DNA from: Mycobacteroides saopaulense
Lineage (GTDB): Bacteria; Actinomycetota; Actinomycetes; Mycobacteriales; Mycobacteriaceae
Reading direction: 5' to 3'
Assembly: GCF_001456355.1 (NCBI RefSeq)
Contig: NZ_CP010271.1
Location: forward strand, 2,666,001 to 2,730,000
DNA: 64,000 nt
Part shown: positions 8,250-28,002 of the stretch, in pieces
How positions within the stretch are numbered: the stretch's first letter is position 1
How the letters are laid out: every line of letters starts with the position of its first letter
Notes under the pieces: generated by a model
What the model saw: only the letters and a program-made list of their open reading frames with translations
Databases searched by the model: none
What the model was told of the DNA's origin: nothing
Program-made: the position numbers and the translations under genes

Positions 8250-9266
8250 TTAACCGACTGGAGCTGCCGCCCGCTCCTCGATCTCTCGGCGCAGCTCCGT
8301 TCCCGACCACGTCTTCTGGCCGCGAGAGGTCAACTCGTGAACGAGGCTCACGAGTGCGGCGTTGACCGGTGCGCTCGTGCCGAGTTTCTTGGCGAGTTCG
8401 ACGACTTCACCGTTGATGTAGTCGATTTCGGTCGTCCTGCCGAGGGTGATGTCGTCGAGCATGGACGAACGGGCCTGAGGGTCGATCTCGACCATATGTC
8501 GCGCCAACCGGGCGAACAGCGCGTTCGGCATCCGCAGCACCCAGGGCATGAATGCCAAGGGTGCGGCCAGAGGGCTGACCACCGGTTGTTTGTTGCGGCG
8601 CAGAAGTGCCAGGGCCTCCCGCTGGGCGTCGGCCAGCACCAGGCGGTATTCCCGTTCTCCCAGCTCGGCTTTCAGGGGCAGACCCGAGAGGGCGTTGACC
8701 GCGTTGTTCAGGTTCACCACCAGCTTGCCCCACTGCACCGCGGACATGTCGTCGCGCACATCGGTGGGCAACCCGCACTGCGTAAGCGCCTGTGCCAGGG
8801 ATTCCGCCCCGGCAGAGACGGAGAGTTTTCCCTGTGTGCCCTGATGAAAGCGCGCCGGCCCAACCTGTGCGACATTGAAGCCGACCATTCCGGTGATCAC
8901 CTTGTGCTGCTTGACGTATCGCGAGATCTCGACCGGGTTACGTATCCCGTTCTGCAGGCTGACCACCACAGCTCCGGGGCGCAGTCGTTCGGCCAGCGAT
9001 TGGGCCATCCCCGCGGTCGCTGCGGACTTCACCGTCACAAGCACGACATCGACATCCCGCACCACGTCAACATCCTCGGAAAACACGCAATCCTGCCCGG
9101 GAATGGTGGCCGACCACCCCTGGTAGTCCGACAGAGCCAGACCGTGCTCCACGATCGACTGACCGAGGCTTGCCCGGCCGATGTACACGAGGTGATGCCC
9201 GGCGGTCTGCAGGCGGCCACCCACATAGCAGCCGATGCTTCCGGCTCCGGCGACGGCGATTCTCAT
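8250..9266 (-). CDS. Ketopantoate reductase family protein (PanE/ApbA-like)
   Basis: A 338-residue NADP-dependent 2-oxoacid reductase. The Rossmann glycine motif GAGSIGCYVGG is at residues 7-17, VVSLQNGIRNP at about 97-107, and the C-terminal domain begins with GKLVVNLNNAVNAL, with the catalytic Lys in the GK pair. PanE makes pantoate from ketopantoate, but the family also contains reductases of other 2-oxoacids. The operon context (RidA, M19 dipeptidase, class II aldolase) favours a catabolic 2-oxoacid substrate here rather than CoA synthesis (inference). Its start follows the RidA stop by 2 nt. Confidence 0.82.
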   Translation of the reverse strand: MRIAVAGAGSIGCYVGGRLQTAGHHLVYIGRASLGQSIVEHGLALSDYQGWSATIPGQDCVFSEDVDVVRDVDVVLVTVKSAATAGMAQSLAERLRPGAVVVSLQNGIRNPVEISRYVKQHKVITGMVGFNVAQVGPARFHQGTQGKLSVSAGAESLAQALTQCGLPTDVRDDMSAVQWGKLVVNLNNAVNALSGLPLKAELGEREYRLVLADAQREALALLRRNKQPVVSPLAAPLAFMPWVLRMPNALFARLARHMVEIDPQARSSMLDDITLGRTTEIDYINGEVVELAKKLGTSAPVNAALVSLVHELTSRGQKTWSGTELRREIEERAAAPVG

Positions 9267-16816: not shown

Positions 16817-18109
16817 CTAGTTCGTGCCGCAGTACGCGTTGTTGTTGGACGGCAGCCTGCGGGTGTTGGTGGCTGGTGTGATGGGTTGGCAGAGGGGTCC
16901 GGTGAGCATGTTGGCTTTGACCCAGGTGATTTCGTCGTTGGCGATCCGTAGGCAGGTGTCGTATTGGTCGCCTTGTTGTCCGAAGGTGGCGACGCAGTTG
17001 GTGGACATGTTGGCGAACAGGGTGTTGTTGCAGACGTCGACCGAGGTACCTCGCGGCGCGGCGTCCATGCACATTTGTTGACGCATGCAGGAGGGTGCGA
17101 AGTCCGCGGTGCGGCCGTCCGGTGATCGGTATTGGCTGGGGCCGCCCGGGCACATGCCTGAGTGTCGTTCGGCATAGAGCACCGGGTCGACGCCTGCGGG
17201 CCGGTACTTGCCGTCGATGTCGGTGACGTAGTCGGCAGGGACTGTGATGACTTGGGGTGCGCTGATGCCGTTGGGCATGCCGTCCCAGTCCGCGGTCAGA
17301 GCACCGCTAGTCGGAGTGTTCGAGGCGCGGTACGAGAGGGTGATCTCGATAGGGAAGGCGAAGATGTTGGCCTGGCCCAGGTTGATCAGGATGTTGGTTT
17401 GCCTGGGGAAACCTGGCCCGATACCCGGTGCCACGTTGATCGCGGCACCTTGTGTGTCGCGGGCCACCGGGATGGAGAATGTGCCGATGACTGTTGCGGG
17501 GCGACCTGGGTGAGGGTCTGTTTCCACTAGTACGACGTTGGTGCCCTGACGCAGGTGCGTGCCTTCCGGGATTCTGACGCCGACGGCCATATCCGAGGGC
17601 GAGAAGATGGTCTTGCGGCGGATGATGATGTCGCCGCCACCGCCGGAGAACGGGACCACCTGGTAATCCACATCATTCGAGGCATACGTTGCTCCCCCGT
17701 CGCCTGACCAAGCCGCGGCCTGCAGCGTCATCTCCCCTGGCAGATGGATCGCGATGTTCTTGCCGGCCCAGGTGGTCGGGAAAAAGATGCCGTCCTTGGC
17801 GAACATCGGCACCGTAAAGTTCGACAGCTCGCGCGCGGCCGCGAGCGGCTGACCCATACCGTTGCCCTCACCCTGGGGCGCTGACGACGAGACCTTTGCG
17901 CCGCCGATGTTATTGATGCGGGGTGCATCTTGGGGCATCTCCCGCGGCGCAGGCAGCGGCGGCGGAGTCGGAACCGCCGGGTCGGCCACTGCCATACCGA
18001 GGGTCGTCTTCGAACCAACAGTGGGCGGGACCACAAAAACGGCCGCCAGGAGCGTCAGGCCCACCAACATCAAACGTCGCAGCAGTGACGTCGCGGAGGT
18101 TTTTGTCAT
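16817..18109 (-). CDS. Exported protein of unknown function in the porin/nuclease operon
   Basis: A 430-residue protein with a signal peptide (KTSATSLLRRLMLVGLTLLA, then AVFVVPP) and a Pro-rich start to the mature part. The middle (about residues 75-290) is strand-rich with repeated Gly/Thr turns, suggesting a beta-sandwich-like body. The C-terminal 120 residues hold about ten Cys (CPGG, SCMRQQMCMD, DVCNNT, TNCVATF, YDTCLR, GPLCQP), so it is probably disulfide-bonded outside the membrane. The ATG at 18109 shares one base with the porin stop (TAATG). I know no family. Its position between a mycomembrane porin and an exported nuclease suggests an adaptor or partner (inference). Confidence 0.7.
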   Translation of the reverse strand: MTKTSATSLLRRLMLVGLTLLAAVFVVPPTVGSKTTLGMAVADPAVPTPPPLPAPREMPQDAPRINNIGGAKVSSSAPQGEGNGMGQPLAAARELSNFTVPMFAKDGIFFPTTWAGKNIAIHLPGEMTLQAAAWSGDGGATYASNDVDYQVVPFSGGGGDIIIRRKTIFSPSDMAVGVRIPEGTHLRQGTNVVLVETDPHPGRPATVIGTFSIPVARDTQGAAINVAPGIGPGFPRQTNILINLGQANIFAFPIEITLSYRASNTPTSGALTADWDGMPNGISAPQVITVPADYVTDIDGKYRPAGVDPVLYAERHSGMCPGGPSQYRSPDGRTADFAPSCMRQQMCMDAAPRGTSVDVCNNTLFANMSTNCVATFGQQGDQYDTCLRIANDEITWVKANMLTGPLCQPITPATNTRRLPSNNNAYCGTN

Positions 18110-18888
18110 TAGAGGTCTTTCGGTTCGCCGTAGACGGTTTGGGTGTCGTTGCCGTTCTCGGTGCGGATCCGGAAGGTCGCGAAGGACTGGATTTTGACCT
18201 GGCCGCCGCAACCGTCGGCTTCGACGTTCTGGTTACGCACCTGCGACACGGCATGCATATTCCGGAAGTTGATGCGGTCCATCGGCAACTGCGCCAAACC
18301 ACCCGGCTTGAGCAGCACCCGCATGTAACCACCGATGTGCTCTTGGGCCCCCACCGAGGCACCACCGGACACTCCACCGAAACCGCCGCCTTGGCCGCCG
18401 CCTCCGCCGGAGCCGCCTTGGCCGCCGCCGTAGGCTCCGCCGTAGGCCTGTCCGGAGAGCTGCTGGCTAAGCGTAAGACCAAGATCTCCGCCAAGTTCGA
18501 CACCGGAGGACGAGTCGGTGCGACAGCCCACGAAGTACCCCGTCTCCAGCTGCGCGTCCTGGATGACCGCAGAACCCGCCCCGGCGATCGTGGCCTCGGC
18601 ACGGTACGACACCCGGGCTTGCCAGGAGTTGCTCGCCCCGGCGATGTTGTCGATGTGATCGATCACCTCGTTAGTCATCGTCAACCCGACAGTCCAACCA
18701 TCATCGGTTACGAACTGCTGCTGCTGATCGGGCATCACCTGCGGGTCGGCGAAGGCATACGGAGCACCGGACAGGAGTGCCACTGCAACTGTGAGTGATG
18801 TTGCGACCGGCACGCGACGTCTTGGGCGCCTGCGTCGTAATGCAGTAGTCAACGGCATATCTCCCCGTCGGAGCACGAACCTGTGCAT
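18109..18888 (-). CDS. MspA-family porin-like protein
   Basis: A 259-residue exported protein. An Arg-rich n-region and hydrophobic core (PVATSLTVAVALLSGAPYAFA) form a signal peptide cleaved near ADPQ. The mature part follows the MspA pattern: FVTDDGWTVGLTMTNE, QLETGYFVGCRTDSSSGVEL, GGYMRVLLKPGG and the family ending TVYGEP. It has an unusual Gly-rich insertion (about residues 165-190, GGAYGGGQGGSGGGG-like) and two Cys absent from classical MspA. MspA proteins form octameric pores in the mycolate outer membrane. The ATG at 18888 is chosen because it lies downstream of a good promoter (-10 at 18920-18925) and has AAGGGG upstream; the ATG at 18933 would lie upstream of that promoter's -10. It is the first gene of a three-gene exported operon. 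Confidence 0.8.
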   Translation of the reverse strand: MHRFVLRRGDMPLTTALRRRRPRRRVPVATSLTVAVALLSGAPYAFADPQVMPDQQQQFVTDDGWTVGLTMTNEVIDHIDNIAGASNSWQARVSYRAEATIAGAGSAVIQDAQLETGYFVGCRTDSSSGVELGGDLGLTLSQQLSGQAYGGAYGGGQGGSGGGGGQGGGFGGVSGGASVGAQEHIGGYMRVLLKPGGLAQLPMDRINFRNMHAVSQVRNQNVEADGCGGQVKIQSFATFRIRTENGNDTQTVYGEPKDL

Positions 18889-18919
18889 GGGTGCCGTCCC
18901 CTTGGCTGGCACACGCAGA

Positions 18920-18963
18920 TTTATAGCAGTCAATGCTCGCTATAGCAACATTTACTAGCAAAA
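18920..18963 (-). promoter_or_regulatory. Promoter of porin/nuclease operon with block shared with the RiPP-like locus
   Basis: Reading the minus strand, a -35-like TTGCTA (18943-18948) and -10-like TATAAA (18920-18925) are 17 nt apart. The block 18921-18963 matches 23341-23383 without gaps at 30 of 43 positions, including CATTGACTG in the spacer and GTAAAT upstream of the -35. Conservation across the spacer suggests a common regulator. Confidence 0.7.
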
Positions 18964-19035
18964 CAATGCCTGTAGTGCGCTTACCGGTAAAGAATTGCGG
19001 TAGGGTGACCGGCGGGCGGGAAAGCCGAAGAACGG

Positions 19036-19512
19036 ATGGGGACAATGCCAAACAAGGGTCACGATCAACAGGTTGCTGAGGACATGCGCGCAGAGAGCCT
19101 GGCCGCTAAGCTCACCAAGTTGTACGAGGTGATGAGTCCTGCAGGCGAAGCTGTCTCCGACGCGACGGTCGCCGATGGAATCTTCGAGAAGACGGGGGTG
19201 CAGATGAGTGGGCCGTACTTGTGCCTGCTGCGCACCGGCAAGCGCACCAACCCGACCGTGCAGAACGTGCAGGCCATCGCCGAATACTTCGGAGTCCCGG
19301 CCTCCTACCTCATCGACGCCGGCGCCGACGCCGCGATCGAATCCGAGCTGCGCCTCGTCAAAGCCATGCGCGACAACGGCATCCGTGACATCGCCACAAG
19401 ATTGTCGGGGCTTACCCCCGAGTCGATCGGGAATCTGGCCGGCATCGTCGATCGCCTGCGTGAACTGGAGAACCTGCCACCGATCGGACCCACTGATGAA
19501 CCTTCGACGTAA
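19036..19512 (+). CDS. EspR-like XRE-family transcriptional regulator
   Basis: A 158-residue helix-turn-helix protein closely patterned on mycobacterial EspR: FEKTGVQMSGPYLCLLRTGKRTNPTVQNVQAIAEYFGVPASYL (residues 50-93, in pieces) is the XRE HTH, and the C-terminal AIESELRLVKAMRDNGIRDIATR region is the dimerisation part. EspR is a nucleoid-associated regulator of ESX-1 genes; this island-borne paralogue probably acts locally. It diverges from the porin operon and is the first gene of a unit with the ImmA-like and MAB_1171c-type genes (17-nt overlap with the next). The TTACCGGTAA palindrome upstream (about 18977-18986) could be a binding site. Confidence 0.83.
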   Translation: MGTMPNKGHDQQVAEDMRAESLAAKLTKLYEVMSPAGEAVSDATVADGIFEKTGVQMSGPYLCLLRTGKRTNPTVQNVQAIAEYFGVPASYLIDAGADAAIESELRLVKAMRDNGIRDIATRLSGLTPESIGNLAGIVDRLRELENLPPIGPTDEPST

Positions 19513-19999
19513 ACGCCCACAACACACAGGCTTACCCGAAACCGACATGCGTCAGCTCATCGGACAGCTTCCCGTACCCAGCCCCTTCGACCGGACCGCG
19601 TTCATCCACACCGTCGAACAGCTGCGCGGCCGCCGGATCACCCTCCTGCCCGTCGACGCCACGCTATTGGCGGGAAGTGCGTGCGGTCTGTGGCTAGTGC
19701 GCGAACACGACGACATCGTGCTGTATCAAGACGGAACCTCCCAGCTGCACGCCGACCAGATCATCCTGCACGAACTCGGCCACATGCTGCTCGGCCACGA
19801 CAAGAACGCGAAAACAGACACCGCGCAAATGGTCTCAGCGCTCACCCCAAACCTGGACCCCGGCACGGTCAAAGCAGCCCTCGGTCGCAGCGCCTACAAC
19901 ACCACCGCCGAACACGACGCCGAACTCTTCGCCAGCCTCATCCTTAGCCACTCCCCCAAAGACCGAACCCTCACCGACGTCCTCCTCGGGCGCCAGTGA
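19496..19999 (+). CDS. ImmA/IrrE-family metallopeptidase-like protein
   Basis: A 167-residue protein with a zinc-protease motif HELGHMLLGH at residues 92-101 and a downstream AEHDAELFASLIL helix that supplies the third ligand Glu, as in ImmA/IrrE proteins. ImmA cleaves a cognate XRE repressor in some mobile elements. Being encoded directly after an XRE protein suggests a repressor-protease relationship, but this is not shown. The ATG at 19496 lies inside the end of the regulator gene, so translation is coupled. The 3' end overlaps the next gene as GTGA. Confidence 0.8.
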   Translation: MNLRRKRPQHTGLPETDMRQLIGQLPVPSPFDRTAFIHTVEQLRGRRITLLPVDATLLAGSACGLWLVREHDDIVLYQDGTSQLHADQIILHELGHMLLGHDKNAKTDTAQMVSALTPNLDPGTVKAALGRSAYNTTAEHDAELFASLILSHSPKDRTLTDVLLGRQ

Positions 20000-21156
20000 C
20001 CAGCGCGGTACCCGGCTTCATCTCTTGGCCAGTCTTCGCCTGTTTCGTGTTGGTGCTGGCTTTTCGACGGCGTTGGCTGGGCGCCGGGCTCGCCGCCCGC
20101 CACCGCAATCGTGCACTGACTTACCTTGCCGCCACTCACCTGGCCAGCGAACCGCAGGTACAGCACCTGCTCGCCACCACTATCCCAACCACAGCCGGCA
20201 CCACCTCCCAAATCCCTCTGGCACTGCTACTACTAACGTGCCCTGAAGTCATCGGCATTATCGCGATGACCGATGGCCTCGACCCCGACACTCTGGTCCG
20301 CGGCTACCGCCACTACCGCACCGCGACCGTCGCCACCATTACCGTGCTCTACTTCGTCGCGATCACCCCCCGCAGGCAGGATCAACCCATCGCCCTGGCC
20401 AGCGACAACTCTGAAGTACTGGCCGCCGCCATCTGGTCAATCCTGTCGGTCACCGCAGCCACCATGATCCTGTGGCAGCTCACCAAGAACCTGCGCCAGA
20501 CACGCACAACCACCGCACAACGCCTCATCGCCGTCGAACTGGGCGCAATCGCCGCTTTGATCTGCTTACCCGGCTTGAGCATCTTCACCCTGGCCCTACT
20601 GGAACGCCTGGACCTGGCCTACACCTTGACTGTGCGCCAAGCCATCTACTCCTACGCCAGCTTCGGAGCCCTCCTGGCCGCCCTGCCCCTGGCGCTGGGA
20701 CCCTGCTTCGTCGCCGCACAAGCCCTCCTGCACCGCGACACCAACGGTCGCACCTGGCGCAAACTCCAACCCCTCTGGACCGACCTCACCACCGCCTACC
20801 CAGACACCGTCCTCAACCCGCCCCCACAACGATTCCAACCCGTCACCGACTTTCAACTGCACCGCATCATCATCGAAATACGTGACGCCCTACTACAACT
20901 GGCCCCCCACATCACCGCACTCACCGACACCGACCGACAACAACTCATTCACGTCTGCAGACCAACCGCCGGTGACCAACTGAGCGCACAACACGCGCTA
21001 CAGATAGCCAAAGCAATCGGCCGCACGACTACCGCCAACCCCTCACCCACCAGCATGACACCCCTGCCCACTGCCACCAGCCGCGAAGACGAACTCACCC
21101 AACTCATCGACCTCACCACCTGGTGGCCTGCGGCCAAAATGCTTGCGCGACAATAA
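19996..21156 (+). CDS. MAB_1171c-type putative transporter/membrane protein
   Basis: A 386-residue integral membrane protein with about seven hydrophobic segments in the first 250 residues (VPGFISWPVFACFVLVLAF onwards). A cytoplasmic C-terminal domain begins near RTWRKLQPLWTDLTTAYPD, the DUF6545-like segment. Triplets of EspR-like regulator, ImmA-like protein and this membrane family recur in actinobacterial accessory regions. The biochemical role is unknown. The GTG start overlaps the preceding stop. It is transcribed towards the HExxH enzyme gene, with a degraded short frame between. Confidence 0.75.
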   Translation: MTSAVPGFISWPVFACFVLVLAFRRRWLGAGLAARHRNRALTYLAATHLASEPQVQHLLATTIPTTAGTTSQIPLALLLLTCPEVIGIIAMTDGLDPDTLVRGYRHYRTATVATITVLYFVAITPRRQDQPIALASDNSEVLAAAIWSILSVTAATMILWQLTKNLRQTRTTTAQRLIAVELGAIAALICLPGLSIFTLALLERLDLAYTLTVRQAIYSYASFGALLAALPLALGPCFVAAQALLHRDTNGRTWRKLQPLWTDLTTAYPDTVLNPPPQRFQPVTDFQLHRIIIEIRDALLQLAPHITALTDTDRQQLIHVCRPTAGDQLSAQHALQIAKAIGRTTTANPSPTSMTPLPTATSREDELTQLIDLTTWWPAAKMLARQ

Positions 21157-21224
21157 TATTTCAAGATGACGGCGACACCACAGCGATCGCAGGACCGGTC
21201 GATATCCAATTTGTGAGGGCTCCG

Positions 21225-21407
21225 ATGTTTGTTATCGAAGACGACGAGCATGCCAAAGAACTCGGCAGGTACCGGCACAGGGCGGACGCAATCACGGAGC
21301 TGCGGCGCCTAGCCCAGTTGCCGTGGGATGTATCGCTACACTTTCAATGCGTGTTTACACAACGCCGTGGCGCGTCACTTGTAAAATCGCATCGCTTGAT
21401 TCATTAA
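21225..21407 (+). pseudogene. Truncated small conserved protein remnant
   Basis: The first 30 codons from the ATG at 21225 (VIEDDEHAKELGRYRHRADA, then ITELRRLAQLPWD) look like the start of a common actinobacterial small protein that normally continues with a Cys-containing, Tyr-rich C terminus. Here the reading changes to unrelated sequence after PWD and runs into the convergent HExxH gene. I read it as a 3'-truncated remnant; the family comparison is from memory. Confidence 0.45.
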
Positions 21408-22890
21408 TCATATTCCTGGCCATGGCATCTGCCGAAGGATGCGGCAACGTGTAGCCGCCGTCATTTGATAGCCGAATCAGGATGCCGTGAACGGCGTTTC
21501 GTGTTGCCGCAAAGCGAGACATCGGGTCAGGCAATGCACCGGCAGCCTGTAGTTGAGCCATATCGACTGTCGGCAGGTAGCTCGCCAAGGTGTGAGTCTT
21601 GTCGGACTCAATGCGGGCGAGATCACCTGCCAGAGCCGATATCTCGGCCGCACCGGCCATCTCACCTAGCGCTCGGGTCTCTCGCTGGTATCGAGTAAGC
21701 AGAAACGGAAAGGTTCGATCCCCTGGCGGCGGGCTGACATCGAGTGCCGACAGCACCGCCAATAGCCAGTGAGCCAACCGGATCCCTGCAGCACCCAAAT
21801 TGGGTTCGCACTCAGTGACAAGCTGGTGGCCAAGGTAATAGGCGCGGTCCAGAGCTGTTCTCGAATCCGTCCGCGGATTCAGATCCAGATTCGGACCGTA
21901 CGTGGACATGTAGCGACCTTCAAGTCGATCCGCCGCCAAGCCGAGTAGGCCCAAATGGGTGTAGACGTGGAATGCTGCGAAAACCCTGTGCGTGTCCCAT
22001 TGATTCTGTGTGCCACTTGCCCCCGCGATGTTCCACGGAGCGGTCACACGCAGTAACGCTCGGCCAGACAGATCAGCCTCACCGGGCAGTTCCGCCAGAA
22101 CCGAATGCGCATGTCGGAAATCATAAAATTTGTGATGTAGCGCTTCGTGTAAAAGATATTCTGCTGTGCGCCAAGGATTCCCGAAGGCAGACTCCCCGAT
22201 ATAGAACGTACCAGGGATGAGGACGGTGGAGCCTGAGGACATGCTCTTGCCCGAATCAGCTGGGCCGACTACTGCGATCTGGGTTGCGTGTTGCAGCGCC
22301 GAATACGCCAGATTCGGAGTGAGTGCCTCCAATAGCTCAAAGCCCTGTTGAAGCTGGCGGACTTGTTCGCATGTCGGTTCGCGCAAGTCGCTGTTTCGAA
22401 AGTAGAACCGAGAGGCCGCCCTAAACACTCGCGTACACGGATCTTGTCTACGCTCCTCGCGCCAGATCCGCGTCGGCACCTTTCCCGATAGCCCAAGTGT
22501 GCGACCTTCGGCGATAGCACTGGGCGGCCCGTGCTCTCCGCTTCGTAACTGTTCAGCGCATTGCTCGAACACCGCCTCCCTATCGCGGCCGCAGGTCGGC
22601 CCAACCTCGTCAACACCGCTGGTTCTAGCGTAAAACTCATCGAGGACCGCGATACGCACACTTGTGTCCTGCAGGTACGCGCGCGCTGTTGCCTGATCGA
22701 CCGTCTGAAGCTGCTCGTAGAAACCCCTTGCCGGCGCGGACGTCTCTGCGAGTCTCCCTAAACGCCGATCGATGACGGCGTACATGCTCGTCAGGATGTA
22801 CTCGCTGGCCCCGAACGGAAAATGATCGGCAACAAGATGATCAATCTCTTCATCCGAAACTACGGACCGTACGACATCTACAACGCTCAT
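21355..22890 (-). CDS. HExxH-type peptide beta-hydroxylase-like RiPP enzyme
   Basis: A 511-residue protein with a HEALHH metal motif at residues 248-253 (preceded by RTAEYLL). A conserved-looking APWN...WDTHRVFAAFHVYTHLG region follows (about 284-314) with His at 301, 308 and 312 as candidates for the third metal ligand. The size and arrangement match the HEXXH-motif family found beside ribosomal peptide precursors, now described as alpha-ketoglutarate-dependent peptide beta-hydroxylases. It is the last gene of a three-gene unit, starting 29 nt after a 67-residue precursor-like peptide. There is no signal peptide, so it acts in the cytoplasm. The substrate is probably the adjacent peptides (inference). 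Exact chemistry cannot be read from sequence. Confidence 0.72.
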   Translation of the reverse strand: MSVVDVVRSVVSDEEIDHLVADHFPFGASEYILTSMYAVIDRRLGRLAETSAPARGFYEQLQTVDQATARAYLQDTSVRIAVLDEFYARTSGVDEVGPTCGRDREAVFEQCAEQLRSGEHGPPSAIAEGRTLGLSGKVPTRIWREERRQDPCTRVFRAASRFYFRNSDLREPTCEQVRQLQQGFELLEALTPNLAYSALQHATQIAVVGPADSGKSMSSGSTVLIPGTFYIGESAFGNPWRTAEYLLHEALHHKFYDFRHAHSVLAELPGEADLSGRALLRVTAPWNIAGASGTQNQWDTHRVFAAFHVYTHLGLLGLAADRLEGRYMSTYGPNLDLNPRTDSRTALDRAYYLGHQLVTECEPNLGAAGIRLAHWLLAVLSALDVSPPPGDRTFPFLLTRYQRETRALGEMAGAAEISALAGDLARIESDKTHTLASYLPTVDMAQLQAAGALPDPMSRFAATRNAVHGILIRLSNDGGYTLPHPSADAMARNMINESSDAILQVTRHGVV

Positions 22891-22919
22891 GTACGCGCGT
22901 CCCCGTCTGCTAGCTGACT

Positions 22920-23123
22920 TTAGTGCTGGTGAACATGGTTGCCGGAGGCTGGATCATCGAGATCCACATGCCCTTGAGTCACCCGCGAAATCGGTGCATC
23001 TTCGTCGTGAAACTCCTCAACTTCGCCGGTCGGCAGATCAGACAAGGGGTCGTCCCGTAGGCGATGCGGCTCCTGTCTAATCGGTGGCGGCCATTTGTCC
23101 TGCCAATCTGGACCGTTCACCAT
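22920..23123 (-). CDS. Putative RiPP precursor peptide 2
   Basis: A 67-residue acidic peptide. The last 15 residues, VDLDDPASGNHVHQH, are near-identical to the end of the upstream 48-residue peptide, while the N-terminal 50 residues are unrelated. A conserved C terminus on variable leaders is the reverse of ordinary paralogy and points to the C terminus as a modified core or recognition element. The ATG at 23123 lies 2 nt after the stop of peptide 1, so the two are coupled; its own ribosome-binding site is poor. The HExxH enzyme gene follows by 29 nt. Confidence 0.7.
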   Translation of the reverse strand: MVNGPDWQDKWPPPIRQEPHRLRDDPLSDLPTGEVEEFHDEDAPISRVTQGHVDLDDPASGNHVHQH

Positions 23124-23125
23124 CG

Positions 23126-23272
23126 CTAGTGCGAGTGGACGTGGTTGCCGGTGCCCGGATCGTCGACATCGATGACACCGGGACCGCCACGGCCACGAGC
23201 CTGAACTTCCGATTCCTTCAGTGCCGCAGCATCTTCGGGGCTCAGATCCTCTGTGGATTTCTTGTCTGTCAT
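23126..23272 (-). CDS. Putative RiPP precursor peptide 1
   Basis: A 48-residue peptide with a charged helical leader-like part (MTDKKSTEDLSPEDAAALKE), then a Gly-rich turn (RGRGGPG) and the C terminus VIDVDDPGTGNHVHSH. It shares that end with peptide 2, also at the DNA level, so the ends probably arose by duplication. AGAGG 8 nt before the ATG at 23272 supports this start; the frame is open to 23353 but that part overlaps the promoter. It is the first gene of the putative RiPP operon, behind a promoter sharing a block with the porin operon. Confidence 0.72.
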   Translation of the reverse strand: MTDKKSTEDLSPEDAAALKESEVQARGRGGPGVIDVDDPGTGNHVHSH

Positions 23273-23339
23273 GGCAGTACCTCTCGTGTTGGGTGACGCG
23301 CTGCGGTTTCTTTGGCCCGTCGGCAAAGCCGACACCGAA

Positions 23340-23383
23340 GATATATCAGTCAATGATTATCGACGCAAGATTTACCAGAAAAA
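23340..23383 (-). promoter_or_regulatory. Promoter of the RiPP-like operon with shared conserved block
   Basis: On the minus strand a -35-like TTGCGT (23363-23368) and -10-like TATATC (23340-23345) are 17 nt apart, about 60 nt before the start of peptide 1. The block matches the promoter at 18921-18963 (30 of 43 positions, no gaps), including CATTGACTG and GTAAAT. Confidence 0.7.
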
Positions 23384-23468
23384 TTCTTGGGGTCTGAGTT
23401 GACCTAATATGAGACGGCCCTACTGGAATCAAGCCGACCATCCGGACCTCGCAAACACTGAAAATCCC

Positions 23469-23497
23469 GTTGACTGTGCCGTTGGGGCACGGTCAAC
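23469..23497. promoter_or_regulatory. 12-bp hairpin/operator before the CPBP protease gene
   Basis: Arms 23469-23480 (GTTGACTGTGCC) and 23486-23497 (GGCACGGTCAAC) pair fully except for one G-T wobble around a 5-nt loop. It ends 9 nt before the GTG start, so as RNA it would occlude initiation; as DNA it could be an operator. No Shine-Dalgarno sequence is visible between it and the GTG. Confidence 0.55.
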
Positions 23498-23506
23498 ACT
23501 GATTGC

Positions 23507-24199
23507 GTGAACCCCGCAGACAATCGTTACCAGGATCACCGCCTGCCCGGCTGGCCCGAAGTGAGTGTGGCCGTCCTGGCCGCCGCAGTGCTCTATATGG
23601 TCGGTGCGGTGACTGCTCTCCGGCTCCCACCTGGCTGTCCAATCTCGCCCGGTCAGGCCAACTTCCTCGTTTCAGGTCTTGCCCCCTTGGGGGCTTTCGC
23701 TCTGGCTGCACTTGTCCGGTTCCGAGATGTGCGCCCCTTCGGGGTGCGGCGCGTGCACGCCGGTTGGTTGGTCGTGGCCATGGGAGTCGGCTTGGCATGC
23801 TTCGTGTTGAGCTGGCCGGTCTCGGCGCTGTTCGATCCGTTTTTTCCCGGCTCGGAAAGTGTCCAGCAAGGTTATCGGGACGCGGCCAGCGCTGGCTTGT
23901 CCTCACTCGTGGTGACCTTTGCGCTCGGCGGGCTGCTCACGCCCCTGGGTGAAGAGGCGCTGTTTCGCGGCGTCTTGGCACAGTTCCTCTCACGTTGGGG
24001 CACTTGGATCGGTCTGTTGGTCAGCGCAGCCGTCTTCGCGCTCGCTCATGGCATTAACGCTGTCATGCCACTGGCATTCGTCATCGGGCTCAGCACCGGA
24101 CTGCTGCTACAGCTTTCCGGCTCTATCTGGCCAGGAGTGCTGGTCCATGCCGTCTACAACAGTTTGGGTATCTTTTACCACGCCGTCGCCGGCGGCTGA
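23507..24199 (+). CDS. CPBP-family intramembrane metalloprotease
   Basis: A 230-residue membrane protein of the CAAX-prenyl-protease/bacteriocin-processing (Abi) family. Catalytic motifs are EEALFRG (Glu149, Glu150, Arg154), FALAHG (His181) and HAVYN (His214, Asn218), in helices typical of the family. Members process peptides or provide self-immunity in bacteriocin loci. It diverges from the two precursor-like peptides and the HExxH enzyme, so leader removal or immunity for that peptide is a reasonable guess. The GTG start directly follows a strong hairpin. Confidence 0.83.
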   Translation: MNPADNRYQDHRLPGWPEVSVAVLAAAVLYMVGAVTALRLPPGCPISPGQANFLVSGLAPLGAFALAALVRFRDVRPFGVRRVHAGWLVVAMGVGLACFVLSWPVSALFDPFFPGSESVQQGYRDAASAGLSSLVVTFALGGLLTPLGEEALFRGVLAQFLSRWGTWIGLLVSAAVFALAHGINAVMPLAFVIGLSTGLLLQLSGSIWPGVLVHAVYNSLGIFYHAVAGG

Positions 24200-24478
24200 C
24201 TCGAATCAGCATCTCAGGCAACTTGCTAACCAAACGCCATATCCCAGAGGCCTTTTAGCCAAGATTGGCTCGGAGCCAACGTCCCGCCAACTTTCGCATG
24301 AGTCGATGGCTCAGGCCCCCTAGAAACAGATCAACCCCGGCGCGCCGTAGCCATCTATCGGGTCAGACGGATCGTGGGGCCTAAGCCGCAGAACCCGTAC
24401 CTTGCTCACCGAAAAGTAGGCGCTAGAAGGCGAATTAGCATCTGACGGCGCACCCTCGCCCGTCACCGCTCGACGGCA

Positions 24479-24715
24479 CTAGAGCTTGTACCGCAGGTAC
24501 ATCATGGCCAGGAAGAGGAGCACGAACGCGCCAAGCCCCAATCCGGCAAGCACGCTCTTGAGAGCCAACGAGATGCATACGACCGCGACCGTAGGAGCGA
24601 CCACCCAGTAAACCCACTTCTGGACAGTACTTTCACGGGGCTCAGCCAAAAGGCCGATGCCTCCACACACCGCAGCCATCAAGGCGATGTAAAAGTCTGG
24701 TTCCGGGGCTCTCAT
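24479..24715 (-). CDS. Small membrane protein, unknown
   Basis: A 78-residue protein, mostly two to three hydrophobic segments (DFYIALMAAVCGGIGLLA, WVYWVVAPTVAVVCISLAL, GAFVLLFLAMMYL). The ATG at 24715 has GGAG 8 nt upstream and is preferred over an upstream start at 24757. It follows another small membrane protein and a secreted protein on the same strand within the island. No family recognised. Confidence 0.55.
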   Translation of the reverse strand: MRAPEPDFYIALMAAVCGGIGLLAEPRESTVQKWVYWVVAPTVAVVCISLALKSVLAGLGLGAFVLLFLAMMYLRYKL

Positions 24716-24803
24716 CGCCTGACTCCATGTGTGAACCACACCGAGGCACCACCACAAGACATTTCAGCAATGCGATTGCTGGGCAACATGATTCTGCCGA
24801 CGC

Positions 24804-25109
24804 TCAACGGTGCGGGGTCTGCAGGCCGTACTCCACGGCCGCATCGATTGCCACCAACCATGTGAGGGAACACAGGCCGACCAAGACAGCGTGCCAGTAG
24901 CAGAGCCGTTCGTTGAACCGGACCCTGCGAGCCACCGCCACGATCGCAAATATCACGCTGATACCGAAGGTGATCCAGAATCCCAAGTACAAGCCTGCGG
25001 ACCAGAAGAACTGGAACAGCACCACCGATAGCGTGAAACACAGCAGCATGCTCAACCCGAGGCCCGCCGCGAACGACAAGACTGTGAGGACGGCAGTTCT
25101 GGTGCTCAA
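24804..25109 (-). CDS. Small membrane protein, unknown
   Basis: A protein of about 101 residues with three hydrophobic segments (LTVLSFAAGLGLSMLLCFTL, YLGFWITFGISVIFAIVAVA, HAVLVGLCSLTWLVA). I place the start at the TTG at 25109, which overlaps the stop of the upstream secreted-protein gene as TTGA; a TTG at 25118 is an alternative. The arrangement implies translational coupling with that gene. Function is unknown; it may anchor or export its secreted neighbour. Confidence 0.55.
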   Translation of the reverse strand: MSTRTAVLTVLSFAAGLGLSMLLCFTLSVVLFQFFWSAGLYLGFWITFGISVIFAIVAVARRVRFNERLCYWHAVLVGLCSLTWLVAIDAAVEYGLQTPHR

Positions 25110-25714
25110 AATGTCCAACTGCCAGAAGGTTTGAGAACGAATCCATGCTCGTCACTGGCAGTGTCGAGGCAAGCCACGATCGTATTGGTATCAACCACAC
25201 ACGTGACGTGGCCGTACGAGACCTTCTGCCCCACTGCGAGTAGGGATCCCCTGTTGATCGGTCCCGGCGACTTACCATCGCAGCCTCCGTAGAAGTAATG
25301 CGACAGTTGATACGGCGCCCCGGCACTGTCGTCGCCGGGCCCCACCGAGCCGACCACACAATCGCCAGATTTCGGAGTCGCCACCTCGCGTTTCATGAGA
25401 TCCGTGGTGGGGATGTTGTCGACCCCCACAGGAGCACCTCCACACCTGACGCCTTGCCCAGAATCCGCAAGCTCCTTTGGGGCACCAAATCTGCAGCCGA
25501 TGTCGTAGGGAGTGACAAAGGCCAGAAAACTCATGTCCGTGGCGCCCTTAGACCACCGCGTGATGTAAGGCTCTGGCGATACGGCGGTGAACTTACTGAG
25601 ATCGGGGAACCCGCCCGGCTGCGCCTGAGCCGGAACCGCGAAGACACTCATCGCCGCGCCACACAGCACGACAGCGGCGAACACAAGCTTCGCCCCACCG
25701 TCAACAATTCGCAT
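25106..25714 (-). CDS. Secreted protein, unknown
   Basis: A 202-residue protein with a clear signal peptide (KLVFAAVVLCGAAMSVFA, cleavage near VPAQAQ). The mature domain has six Cys, in pairs (IGCRF, VRCGG, GDCVVG, YGGCDG, VTCVV, VACLD), probably disulfide-linked. GGAGGGG lies upstream of the ATG at 25714. Small Cys-paired secreted proteins of this type are common in mycobacteria and unassigned. It heads a three-gene unit with two small membrane proteins. Confidence 0.65.
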   Translation of the reverse strand: MRIVDGGAKLVFAAVVLCGAAMSVFAVPAQAQPGGFPDLSKFTAVSPEPYITRWSKGATDMSFLAFVTPYDIGCRFGAPKELADSGQGVRCGGAPVGVDNIPTTDLMKREVATPKSGDCVVGSVGPGDDSAGAPYQLSHYFYGGCDGKSPGPINRGSLLAVGQKVSYGHVTCVVDTNTIVACLDTASDEHGFVLKPSGSWTF

Positions 25715-25842
25715 CTGAAATCCCCTCCACGTAAATCACCCAACCTTCGGTTCATCCTCCCACACCGTATGGTTTGCTGTTTGCTTACACTGTGCTGGTG
25801 TGAATCAGACTCGCGCTTGCCCAATGGTGGATACAATGGCCC

Positions 25843-26403
25843 GTGTATACAGCCCTAATCTTCACCACAGCGGGCATCCCGGTGGCAGTCATCAACCGCA
25901 ACGAACAGGGCCAATGGCTCGGCTGGTGGACCGGCATCGCGGTCGTGGCGCTCGTCGTCGGGCTGGTATGGGCATTGGCCGCGCGGTCCAGGGCGCCGCA
26001 GCTGCGCCAGCTGCTCGACGGCCTGACACCGGCCCAGTATCGGCAGGCCGCCAAGGCGGTTCTGTCGGGGCCGATACCTGCCGAGCCGGCGGTCCGACGC
26101 GCCGCCGCACGCTTAGCCCAGAACACGATTGAGCGTCAGCTGCGCATGATGACACCCGCAGTGCGCAAGCTCTTGATCGGAATCATGGCCGTCAATGTCC
26201 TTATCCAGGTGGGCATCTCAGCCACCGGGGCGATAACCAGCTTTACAACCATCTGCAACGCCGCCGTGTTTGCAGGGTTGGCAGTGTTTTGGTGGCTCTA
26301 TCCCCCGCTGCTCGAGGCCCGAGCAGAACTATTGGCAGGGCCCGTGCACGCACCGTTGCCTGAATCCGGCGAGTATCGCGCCGCCATGGAGAATCGCCCG
26401 TGA
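25843..26403 (+). CDS. Membrane protein, unknown
   Basis: A 186-residue protein with an N-terminal TM segment (GWWTGIAVVALVVGLVWALAA), a cytoplasmic helical region (LRQLLDGLTPAQYRQAAKAV) and two further TM segments (LLIGIMAVNVLIQVGIS and NAAVFAGLAVFWWLYPP). The start is GTG. The 3' end overlaps a short downstream gene as GTGA. A decayed copy of its 5' end and upstream DNA lies at about 28200-28345. No function recognised. Confidence 0.6.
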   Translation: MYTALIFTTAGIPVAVINRNEQGQWLGWWTGIAVVALVVGLVWALAARSRAPQLRQLLDGLTPAQYRQAAKAVLSGPIPAEPAVRRAAARLAQNTIERQLRMMTPAVRKLLIGIMAVNVLIQVGISATGAITSFTTICNAAVFAGLAVFWWLYPPLLEARAELLAGPVHAPLPESGEYRAAMENRP

Positions 26404-26555
26404 GCCCGCGGATCGCCGGGGCGGCACCCACCGCCGGCCTGGAGATGTACGTGCCCGTCGCACACCGCAGGCGACTACGCCCCGTCGTGGTGCCATGGGC
26501 ACGCATCGCCGATCAACTCCGTCCCGGAATGCTGGAGCGACTGCGCGCCGACTGA
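26400..26555 (+). CDS. Small basic protein, coupled to the upstream membrane protein
   Basis: A 51-residue frame from the GTG at 26400, overlapping the upstream stop as GTGA, ending at TGA 26553-26555. It is Arg-rich with a central AHRRRLRPVVVPWARIADQL and ends in LERLRAD, which could form an amphipathic helix. The exact stop/start overlap is the main support. No family recognised. Confidence 0.42.
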   Translation: MSPRIAGAAPTAGLEMYVPVAHRRRLRPVVVPWARIADQLRPGMLERLRAD

Positions 26556-26648
26556 ACAGTTACAAGAACCGACTCCCGTAACCCGACCGGCCAGTCAGCT
26601 ACTCTCATACATGTTCTGAACAGGTGGGATGAAAACGGGGGTTACACG

Positions 26649-27317
26649 GTGCAAAACAATGATCCGGGTTCTCCCGGGCAGCCAGAACCACCGTCACATC
26701 CCGGCGGGTATCCCTGGGGCGCTCCACCACCACCTGCGCATTGGCCCGCACCCCCTCCCGCCACACCACACCGGCCGACACCGCGCTACTGGTACATCGT
26801 CGGCGCGGCACTGATAGCGGTTGGCCTGATCGGGGGCATCAGCCTATTCGTCGCAGGACTGGTCTACGCCCTCAAAGGACCCACCAGCCAGTTCGACGCA
26901 AATGGCTCTGCCACATCACAATTCGCTTCAGGCGAACAGATGATCATCTACGTCGCCGATGTCGAATCCGTACCGAAACTGACCCAGAACACCCGCTGCG
27001 TGGCCCGCGATGAGAACAACAACGATGCCACCGTCAGCCGCTACAACGGCTCCCTGAGCATCAACCAATGGAACGCGCTCTACGTGGTGACCGCCCACCA
27101 AGGCGGCACCTACACCGTCAGCTGCGCCGGCTACTTAGACATCACCTACGGACTCGGGCCCCGCGCCGGGACCGGCGCCATCACAGCGGCTTTCGCAGGT
27201 CCCATCGGTGGCATCACACTCACAGGAGCAGGAATCACCATCCTCATCGTCACCGCATCACGACGACGCAAAACAACACCACCGCAGCACCCGTACGGCA
27301 ATCCGTGGCCGCAGTGA
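26649..27317 (+). CDS. Pro-rich membrane protein with extracytoplasmic domain
   Basis: A 222-residue protein. The N-terminal 45 residues are Pro/His/Gly-rich (QPEPPSHPGGYPWGAPPPPA). A TM segment follows (YIVGAALIAVGLIGGISLFVAGLVYAL, in pieces), then an extracytoplasmic strand-rich domain (about 80-175) with two Cys (NTRCVARD and VSCAGYLD) likely bridged. A second TM (GPIGGITLTGAGITILIV) and a basic tail complete it. This layout recurs among mycobacterial proteins with Pro-rich cytoplasmic tails. The start is GTG; the stop overlaps the next start as TGATG. Confidence 0.62.
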   Translation: MQNNDPGSPGQPEPPSHPGGYPWGAPPPPAHWPAPPPATPHRPTPRYWYIVGAALIAVGLIGGISLFVAGLVYALKGPTSQFDANGSATSQFASGEQMIIYVADVESVPKLTQNTRCVARDENNNDATVSRYNGSLSINQWNALYVVTAHQGGTYTVSCAGYLDITYGLGPRAGTGAITAAFAGPIGGITLTGAGITILIVTASRRRKTTPPQHPYGNPWPQ

Positions 27318-27703
27318 TGGTTGGGAAACGTACCGAAGACAGCAGCAGACCGTCGCGGCCGCGGACAAAGAATCCGTACGCGCACTGGCGCTTGGTGATC
27401 GCGGTACCCGTGTGCACACTGTTTCTGGTAGCCGCGGTGCCCATCGTGATCCGTCCAGCGATCTGCGATCACAAACCCATGAGCCAGTGGGATCGCTGTC
27501 ACCACACCGGAAGAACGCAAGAGCAACTGGTCACAGGTAGCCCGGATCATGTCCCCGACGGCGGGTACGACATACACAAACAGAGCCTCTACAACCGGAT
27601 CATCGCCGGTGCGGCAACCGGTTTAGGGACAGCCGGGTGGGTAATCGTCATCGCCTGGGCCCGGCACGAGTACCTCCGCCGAAAAAGCCCCTCCTCGCTG
27701 TAG
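27317..27703 (+). CDS. Small membrane protein, unknown
   Basis: A 128-residue protein whose ATG shares one base with the preceding stop (TGATG), so the two are coupled. It has a basic N terminus, one TM segment (WRLVIAVPVCTLFLVAAVPIVI), an extracytoplasmic loop with two Cys (AICDHKP and DRCHHTG) and a second TM near the end (IIAGAATGLGTAGWVIVIAW). It may work with the Pro-rich neighbour. No family recognised. Confidence 0.55.
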   Translation: MVGKRTEDSSRPSRPRTKNPYAHWRLVIAVPVCTLFLVAAVPIVIRPAICDHKPMSQWDRCHHTGRTQEQLVTGSPDHVPDGGYDIHKQSLYNRIIAGAATGLGTAGWVIVIAWARHEYLRRKSPSSL

Positions 27704-27717
27704 ACCGTTACGCCGGG

Positions 27718-28002
27718 CGACGTATTCTCGGGTTCACCCGATCGCGGGTGTTCGAGTCTCCAGACCGGACAGCGATCTTCCTGAGACTCGGCGATGTGTA
27801 CCTCGAACTATTCGGCGGGGCACCAGTTGATACCCGAGGCGCTTCGAGTGGATCGGCAGACAGCCCTGAGTACCCTGGGTCCTTGCGGCACATCGCATTC
27901 CAGGTGGATTTCGATCAATACGCTCCCGGTTGGCGGAGTATGTGGCTATCCGATCCGGACGGTGCCATCGTTGAGGTAGGTCAGGGATACCGAGACGCTG
28001 AG
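27718..28002 (+). pseudogene. Decayed VOC/glyoxalase-fold gene fragment
   Basis: The translation VFESPDRTAIFLRLGDVYLE, then LFGGAP, LRHIAFQVDF and WLSDPDGAIVEVGQGY reads as the second half of a VOC-superfamily domain. The usual N-terminal betaalphabetabeta half is missing, and the middle carries a short deletion. The frame then runs into a 7-bp tandem repeat and unrelated sequence. I treat it as a remnant rather than a gene. Confidence 0.55.

Follow-up and report, generated by a model that had tools for sequence, protein, structure and literature searches.

Organization of the locus

Within the window, by which the whole stretch of 64,000 nucleotides analysed here is meant (Mycobacteroides saopaulense, contig NZ_CP010271.1, positions 2,666,001 to 2,730,000), two adjacent short genes, A1 and A2, encode peptides with a shared C-terminal tail and are followed on the same strand by the gene of an HExxH protein, with a CPBP membrane protease gene lying divergently beside them (Table 1). 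A first-pass annotation of the bare sequence had proposed a new type of ribosomally synthesized and post-translationally modified peptide (RiPP) here, and the layout that it described was recovered as such: the coordinates, the 2 nt between A1 and A2, the 29 nt from the A2 stop to the enzyme ATG, the HEALHH motif and the divergent CPBP gene are all present. A Shine-Dalgarno-like GAGAGGT ends 6 nt 5′ of the A1 ATG. The G+C content of the locus was 58%, against 64.6% for the window, and equally low values appeared in 5 of 124 sliding windows. No structured RNA was found near the locus at Rfam gathering scores (window positions 18000-28000), and scans of the locus for promoters and terminators gave signals no higher than those in shuffled sequences.

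Table 1. Features of the putative RiPP locus (window positions)
Feature	Position	Strand	Basis or remark
Precursor peptide A1, 48 aa	23126..23272	-	Open reading frame (ORF) with ribosome-binding-site-like GAGAGGT; leader with EDLSPEDAAALKESE motif, tail GVIDVDDPGTGNHVHSH
Precursor peptide A2, 67 aa	22920..23123	-	ORF; N terminus unlike that of A1, same tail GHVDLDDPASGNHVHQH
Shared C-terminal 17 codons and stop of A1	23126..23179	-	Putative modified core
Shared C-terminal 17 codons and stop of A2	22920..22973	-	Putative modified core
HExxH enzyme, 511 aa	21355..22890	-	Putative alpha-ketoglutarate/Fe(II) peptide beta-hydroxylase
CPBP (Rce1-like) membrane protease, divergent	23507..24199	+	PF02517, E 1.1e-18; neighbour, no evidence of membership in the system

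The two precursor peptides

The C-terminal residues are IDVDDPGTGNHVHSH in A1 and VDLDDPASGNHVHQH in A2. The tail that the annotation had seen on both peptides was borne out, with 11 of 17 residues identical (blastp of the pair, E about 1e-8). At only six of these 11 positions is the codon identical as well, which argues that the tail is kept at the protein level and is not a fresh DNA copy; the codon differences between the tails fall seven times on the third position and five and three times on the other two. Neither peptide contains Cys or matches Pfam or NCBIfam, and their ends (HVHSH and HVHQH) carry no C-terminal FxSxx. In both, an Arg is followed by five residues and then by an (I/V)D(V/L)DDP stretch, so that cleavage after this Arg would yield two 20-residue cores. 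The predicted structure of A1 has a helix at residues 12-28 and an unstructured tail, at low confidence (predicted local distance difference test, pLDDT, 60).

The N termini of A1 and A2 had been called unrelated to each other. For A2, no leader similarity to the family precursors was detected, and only its tail links it to them. The N terminus of A1 is kin to that of a precursor of Streptomyces sp. YS415 (39% over 38 aa; none of 2000 shuffles scored as well, and one of 2000 did when the last eight residues were removed); against the precursors of loci L016 and L018 the scores are unremarkable, 124 and 1079 of 2000 shuffles doing equally well. The 48-aa protein P0099, which differs from A1 at 3 of 48 positions (residues 6, 23 and 25) and has an identical tail, was taken as the Mycobacteroides salmoniphilum orthologue of A1, in a cluster holding both.

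The HExxH enzyme

The residues H248, E249 and H252 of the 511-aa protein are invariant in 23 alignment rows of its relatives, and H308, which is invariant too, may serve as the third ligand. Its predicted structure has the fold of the HExxH domain of ChlB (PDB 8s5f), a radical SAM-fused alpha-ketoglutarate-dependent beta-hydroxylase of Asp and His. In contrast to ChlB, the window enzyme lacks a radical SAM domain, continues past residue 384 with an additional helical C-terminal part, lies beside a different type of precursor and gives only a weak sequence profile match (E 0.7). An enzyme of M. salmoniphilum (P0001) is 92% identical to it.

The whole genome gave a single TIGR04267 match and none to YcaO. 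The 11 matches to radical SAM (PF04055) all lie outside the window, and the only MNIO match (PF05114) is at 2783453-2784244, some 53 kb past the end of the window. The idea of a hydroxylation-only class thus fits the window, where no YcaO, radical SAM or MNIO match was found (lanthipeptide synthetases were not searched for). For the family as a whole, the label is too restrictive, since 40 of 85 enzyme homologues carry a methyltransferase domain and one cluster includes a caspase-family protein.

Recurrence of the peptide-enzyme pair

A scan of the GTDB representative genomes gave 26 loci with a related enzyme. Pairs were counted by a rule fixed after the peptides had been seen, namely a His-dense short ORF at most 600 nt upstream of the enzyme match. 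It was positive at 17 of 29 loci, ten of them near-copies from Janthinobacterium, and at 7 of the 19 remaining ones. Counted per ORF, His-dense frames made up 20 of 122 near the enzyme versus 29 of 4411 elsewhere. On recounting, the 17 of 29 and the 29 of 4411 were reproduced. The rule misses two cases counted by hand, the window itself (3 His) and L007, in which the frame runs upstream past the length limit; at L021 and L022 it scored an overlapping frame, the precursor frame qualifying too.

With near-copies merged, the pair was found in ten lineages: the window with M. salmoniphilum; Nocardia arizonensis with a Methylobacter metagenome-assembled genome (MAG); Janthinobacterium (10 loci); Streptomyces sp. 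YS415; S. olivoverticillatus; Actinomadura montaniterrae; a Sphingomonadaceae MAG; Paraburkholderia kirstenboschensis; a Streptosporangiaceae strain; and a plasmid of Streptomyces xanthophaeus. The co-conservation that the annotation had proposed to look for was thus observed, with three close enzyme relatives standing apart from it (see below). That the short genes encode small metal-binding proteins with no link to the enzyme, paired with it by chance in an accessory region, would suit the low G+C content and patchy occurrence of the region; it is very improbable given that ten lineages keep both the pairing and the gene order, with a common type of leader.

The stretch upstream of the enzyme gave no His-dense peptide at L009, L020, L023, L025-L029, L036 and L042, and none was noticed among the listed frames near the enzyme at L037 and L038. 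In an enzyme tree built by a quick method and with several long branches, L020, L025-L029, L038 and L042 form a separate peptide-less branch, L037 has a very long branch of unsure placement, and L009, L023 and L036 sit among the peptide-bearing rows.

Among sampled genomes, the own one included, the enzyme appeared in 5 of 401 from the family (full-length only in the own genome, the others partial), 2 of 119 from relatives and 3 of 394 from the class. This rare and patchy distribution is in keeping with horizontal spread. Both flanks of the locus were found at length in none of 60 other genomes searched, hence no empty-site comparison could be made. Relatives occur on plasmids of Streptomyces, Nonomuraea and, distantly, Mycobacteroides chelonae, a plasmid origin of the window locus not being shown by this. 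A viral origin was also considered, and no related locus was confirmed in viral_contigs.

Leaders, tails and fusions in the precursor family

Alignments of 13 and 14 precursors showed a helix-like leader, LSxEELxxLQxxxDxxE; the alignments as a whole are loosely conserved, and no column is invariant. The tails of the family include GHHDHDHP, SHDHDHMDDHDHT, TPNHDTHTSPGGHFTHHHP and GGSHVHTHPV. With E <= 0.01 as the limit, a precursor profile retrieved 23 of 2032 candidate proteins. Four of them, P0086, P0087, P0089 and P0099, are themselves seeds or contain a seed, and P0090 is almost identical to a seed; all 20 of the 23 that were inspected by eye have the two-part form of leader and tail. Two other precursors gave one weak, below-cutoff match in Pfam, and six others gave one weak match, far below cutoff, in NCBIfam.

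In Streptomyces sp. YS415, the gene preceding the stand-alone precursor (L005 3622-4683) encodes a 353-aa Peptidase_C14 protein (E 1.9e-21) whose last 68 residues are precursor-like, KLYQIVELSPEELEDLKL ... HHDHDYGGAHHDHDHTNPGGQHTHSHPQ. The combination of caspase and precursor-like tail is repeated in two metagenome proteins, P0110 and P0111, the latter of which is probably a neighbour of the precursor P0095, both having a longest contig of 3,291 bp. Moreover, PN(P/A/L)R or PSPR stands just before the His-rich part in eight of nine precursors of this leader type (P0107 being without it), the leader type having been judged by eye and the nine being mutually related. Arg or Lys is the preferred residue of bacterial caspase-family proteins of this type; if that holds here, the PN(P)R site would be a natural leader/core junction. 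No PF00656 (C14) match was found in the window genome, where cleavage would then need a different protease.

These fusions raise the question of whether the pair belongs to a conflict or cell-death module, its modified tail serving as a signal or having an effect on proteases. FxSxx peptide/HExxH pairs do go with conflict systems in the part of the literature consulted (PMC7159879), and the caspase-family proteins with leader and tail, in YS415 and the two metagenome proteins, point the same way. We regard this reading as unlikely, since no such partner recurs across the compared loci, a PADLOC scan of four window proteins was negative and the window genome is without PF00656.

An aldo/keto reductase gene beside the Nocardia enzyme (L004 9512-10723, Pfam tested in L004) also starts with a leader-like stretch, as does its Methylobacter MAG counterpart (L024 9490-10709), which is split over two frames. 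Compared with the Nocardia leader, 2 and 0 of 2000 shuffles were as good as these starts; against the Paraburkholderia leader, 350 and 268 were. In the same MAG, the reading frame of the enzyme (L024 8001-9484) is broken at 8705 and the precursor frame is open.

Comparison with known systems

Statements on published systems refer to the available parts of the sources. PflC/PosC of Pseudomonas are, like the window enzyme, stand-alone HExxH oxygenases adjoining a precursor, and the Os17 protein scores as weakly with TIGR04267, at a similar E-value. Their own features (NHLP-type leader, poly-Gln and ARMD core, MNIO-nitroreductase, GNAT and transporters) were not recognised at the window locus. 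PesO (nitrilobacillin) and BipH (biphenomycin) are likewise alpha-ketoglutarate-dependent HExxH hydroxylases of RiPPs; their clusters also contain MNIO enzymes, the substrate of PesO is Pro (PMC13060819), and no His/Asp-rich core is mentioned in the accessible text. The FxSxx-COOH systems (VMAP-associated) resemble the window in having a short diverging precursor with a conserved C terminus and an adjoining zincin-like protein. Their motif classes are FxSxx, RxD, acidic and FtsH-associated, and their radical SAM and AP-ATPase partners were not found at the window locus (PMC7159879).

As regards the product, bufferins and bulbicupramide are, like the one proposed below, ribosomal metal-binding peptides. 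They rely on MNIO-type chemistry, with thiooxazole named in the excerpts at hand, whereas the window has no MNIO match and its peptides no Cys. Such MNIO-type chemistry is Cys-derived. The non-ribosomal metallophores with beta-hydroxy-Asp and beta-hydroxy-His contain the same two chelating units that are expected here (PMC12971057), but are made by non-ribosomal peptide synthetases, whereas the window tail is gene-encoded. Among the matches listed from the open-licence PMC literature, judged by title and abstract start, none described His/Asp-tailed precursors paired with an HExxH enzyme, which is not proof of absence. Together with their HExxH partner, the His/Asp-tailed peptides apparently form a so far undescribed family of modified, perhaps metal-binding, peptides.

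Proposed function

We propose, at a probability of roughly 0.7, that the locus is a minimal RiPP operon in which a leader-guided HExxH oxygenase beta-hydroxylates the precursor tails, the product likely binding metal. The two short genes would be the precursor peptides, and the helical LSPE(D/E) leader, which can be made out in A1, would bring the C-terminal tail to the enzyme. This Fe(II)/alpha-ketoglutarate oxygenase would then beta-hydroxylate Asp and/or His (perhaps Asn) within the D-x-D-D-P-x-x-G-N-H-V-H-x-H tail, and cleavage after the Arg that five residues separate from (I/V)D(V/L)DD would free the two 20-aa cores. Beta-hydroxylation is the first hypothesis because an Asp/His/Asn tail stands beside such an enzyme, that of ChlB acting on Asp and His (PMC12636437). 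The hydroxylated tail would most likely bind a metal ion, a suggestion drawn from its His/Asp content and put forward because beta-hydroxy-Asp and beta-hydroxy-His belong, with catechol, hydroxamate and others, to the set of chelating groups on which nearly all non-ribosomal metallophores draw (PMC12971057).

Two other activities of the enzyme have to be weighed. PflC/PosC hydroxylate Gln and are able to cut the backbone (PMC12636437), so that oxidative cleavage, as at their ARMD, or another alpha-ketoglutarate-dependent reaction might release the His tail or an amidated peptide, hydroxylation being secondary. Some family tails (Nocardia, Paraburkholderia) do extend beyond the His core, but the window peptides stop right at the His motif and the 13-precursor alignment holds no ARMD-like follower, making this account rather unlikely. 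Less probable still is that the protein is a zincin-type metallopeptidase clipping peptides whose tails stay unmodified, even if HExxH is the motif classically found in zinc proteases, the enzyme is termed a peptidase in an older description of the FxSxx systems (PMC7159879) and PflC hydrolyses a leaderless substrate (PMC12636437).

Several results weigh against the hydroxylating operon proposed here. The enzyme scored below the TIGR04267 cutoff (33.2 bits with hmmscan or 35.3 in the genome search, versus 40) and is therefore named a structural relative of these hydroxylases and not a curated member; the annotated kinship with the HExxH RiPP enzymes accordingly holds for the motif and the predicted oxygenase fold, not for the profile score. 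The ChlB enzyme requires a preinstalled cyclophane (PMC12636437, in the part available), and nothing found at the window locus would make one. A precursor profile trained without the window rows picked neither window peptide significantly, the A1 frame being third of 784 window ORFs (E 0.25) and A2 unlisted, and the shared motif of the window tails has only 3 His, below most of the family. Furthermore, the close enzyme relatives at L009, L023 and L036, the last two mycobacterial, have no peptide nearby, as is the case for 9 more distant rows, and no transporter or dedicated protease recurs across the compared loci. Since no transporter recurs, a secreted siderophore is disfavoured, and an intracellular buffer or tag is allowed.

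A wider version, which we hold only tentatively and consider doubtful, would see in the family a ribosomal counterpart of the beta-hydroxy-Asp/His siderophores, the HExxH oxygenase, sometimes methyltransferase-fused, turning a gene-encoded His/Asp-rich tail into a series of beta-hydroxylated chelating residues that serves as metallophore or metal-sensing tag; the caspase with the appended module may itself be a substrate of the hydroxylase and may cut at the PN(P)R that precedes the core.

If the proposal is right, this would be a RiPP family in which only an HExxH oxygenase, alone or together with a methyltransferase, recurs for tailoring, acting on a core of His and Asp, and it would offer simple two-gene systems for studying a young enzyme class in which no radical SAM or MNIO partner takes part. 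Should the tails chelate metal, ribosomal peptides would be joined to the beta-hydroxy-Asp/His chemistry of non-ribosomal siderophores. In the caspase-tail fusion, a full-size enzyme would carry a RiPP precursor domain, an unusual arrangement.

Neighbouring genes and related clusters

A role of the CPBP protease in leader removal or immunity, as had been suggested, was rejected as unsupported: no homologue was found in 32 related loci (tblastn E <= 0.01), and a search of 61 genomes found relatives, at most 49% identical, in 12 other genomes.

Distant HExxH proteins also appeared in other surroundings. On the M. chelonae plasmid pMchErm55 (L054 4683-8170), a YcaO-like protein, a distant HExxH relative and an MFS transporter form a different peptide-modification-like cluster, and L037, from a genome of the same genus as the window, has a distant HExxH protein with a transporter-like frame (by eye). 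In L038 (5437-7938), a distant HExxH protein is followed by what we take, by eye, to be a radical SAM-like and then a short PqqD-like protein, with similar genes in L025 and L026. A cyanobacterial HExxH relative (L020 6464-9548) immediately follows a CHAT/caspase-like protein and has a radical SAM-like gene downstream of it, the two neighbours being judged by eye.

Further GGNAACCACGTNCA sites are present elsewhere in the M. saopaulense genome. On the plus strand of the window, positions 19036-21156 hold in series a helix-turn-helix regulator-like frame (weak Pfam match), a HELGH-motif frame, presumably ImmA/IrrE-like, and an MAB_1171c/DUF6545 protein. On the minus strand, positions 16817-18933 hold two secreted porin-like frames, which we assume to be MspA-like and which have other copies in the genome with 82% DNA identity over ~650 bases.

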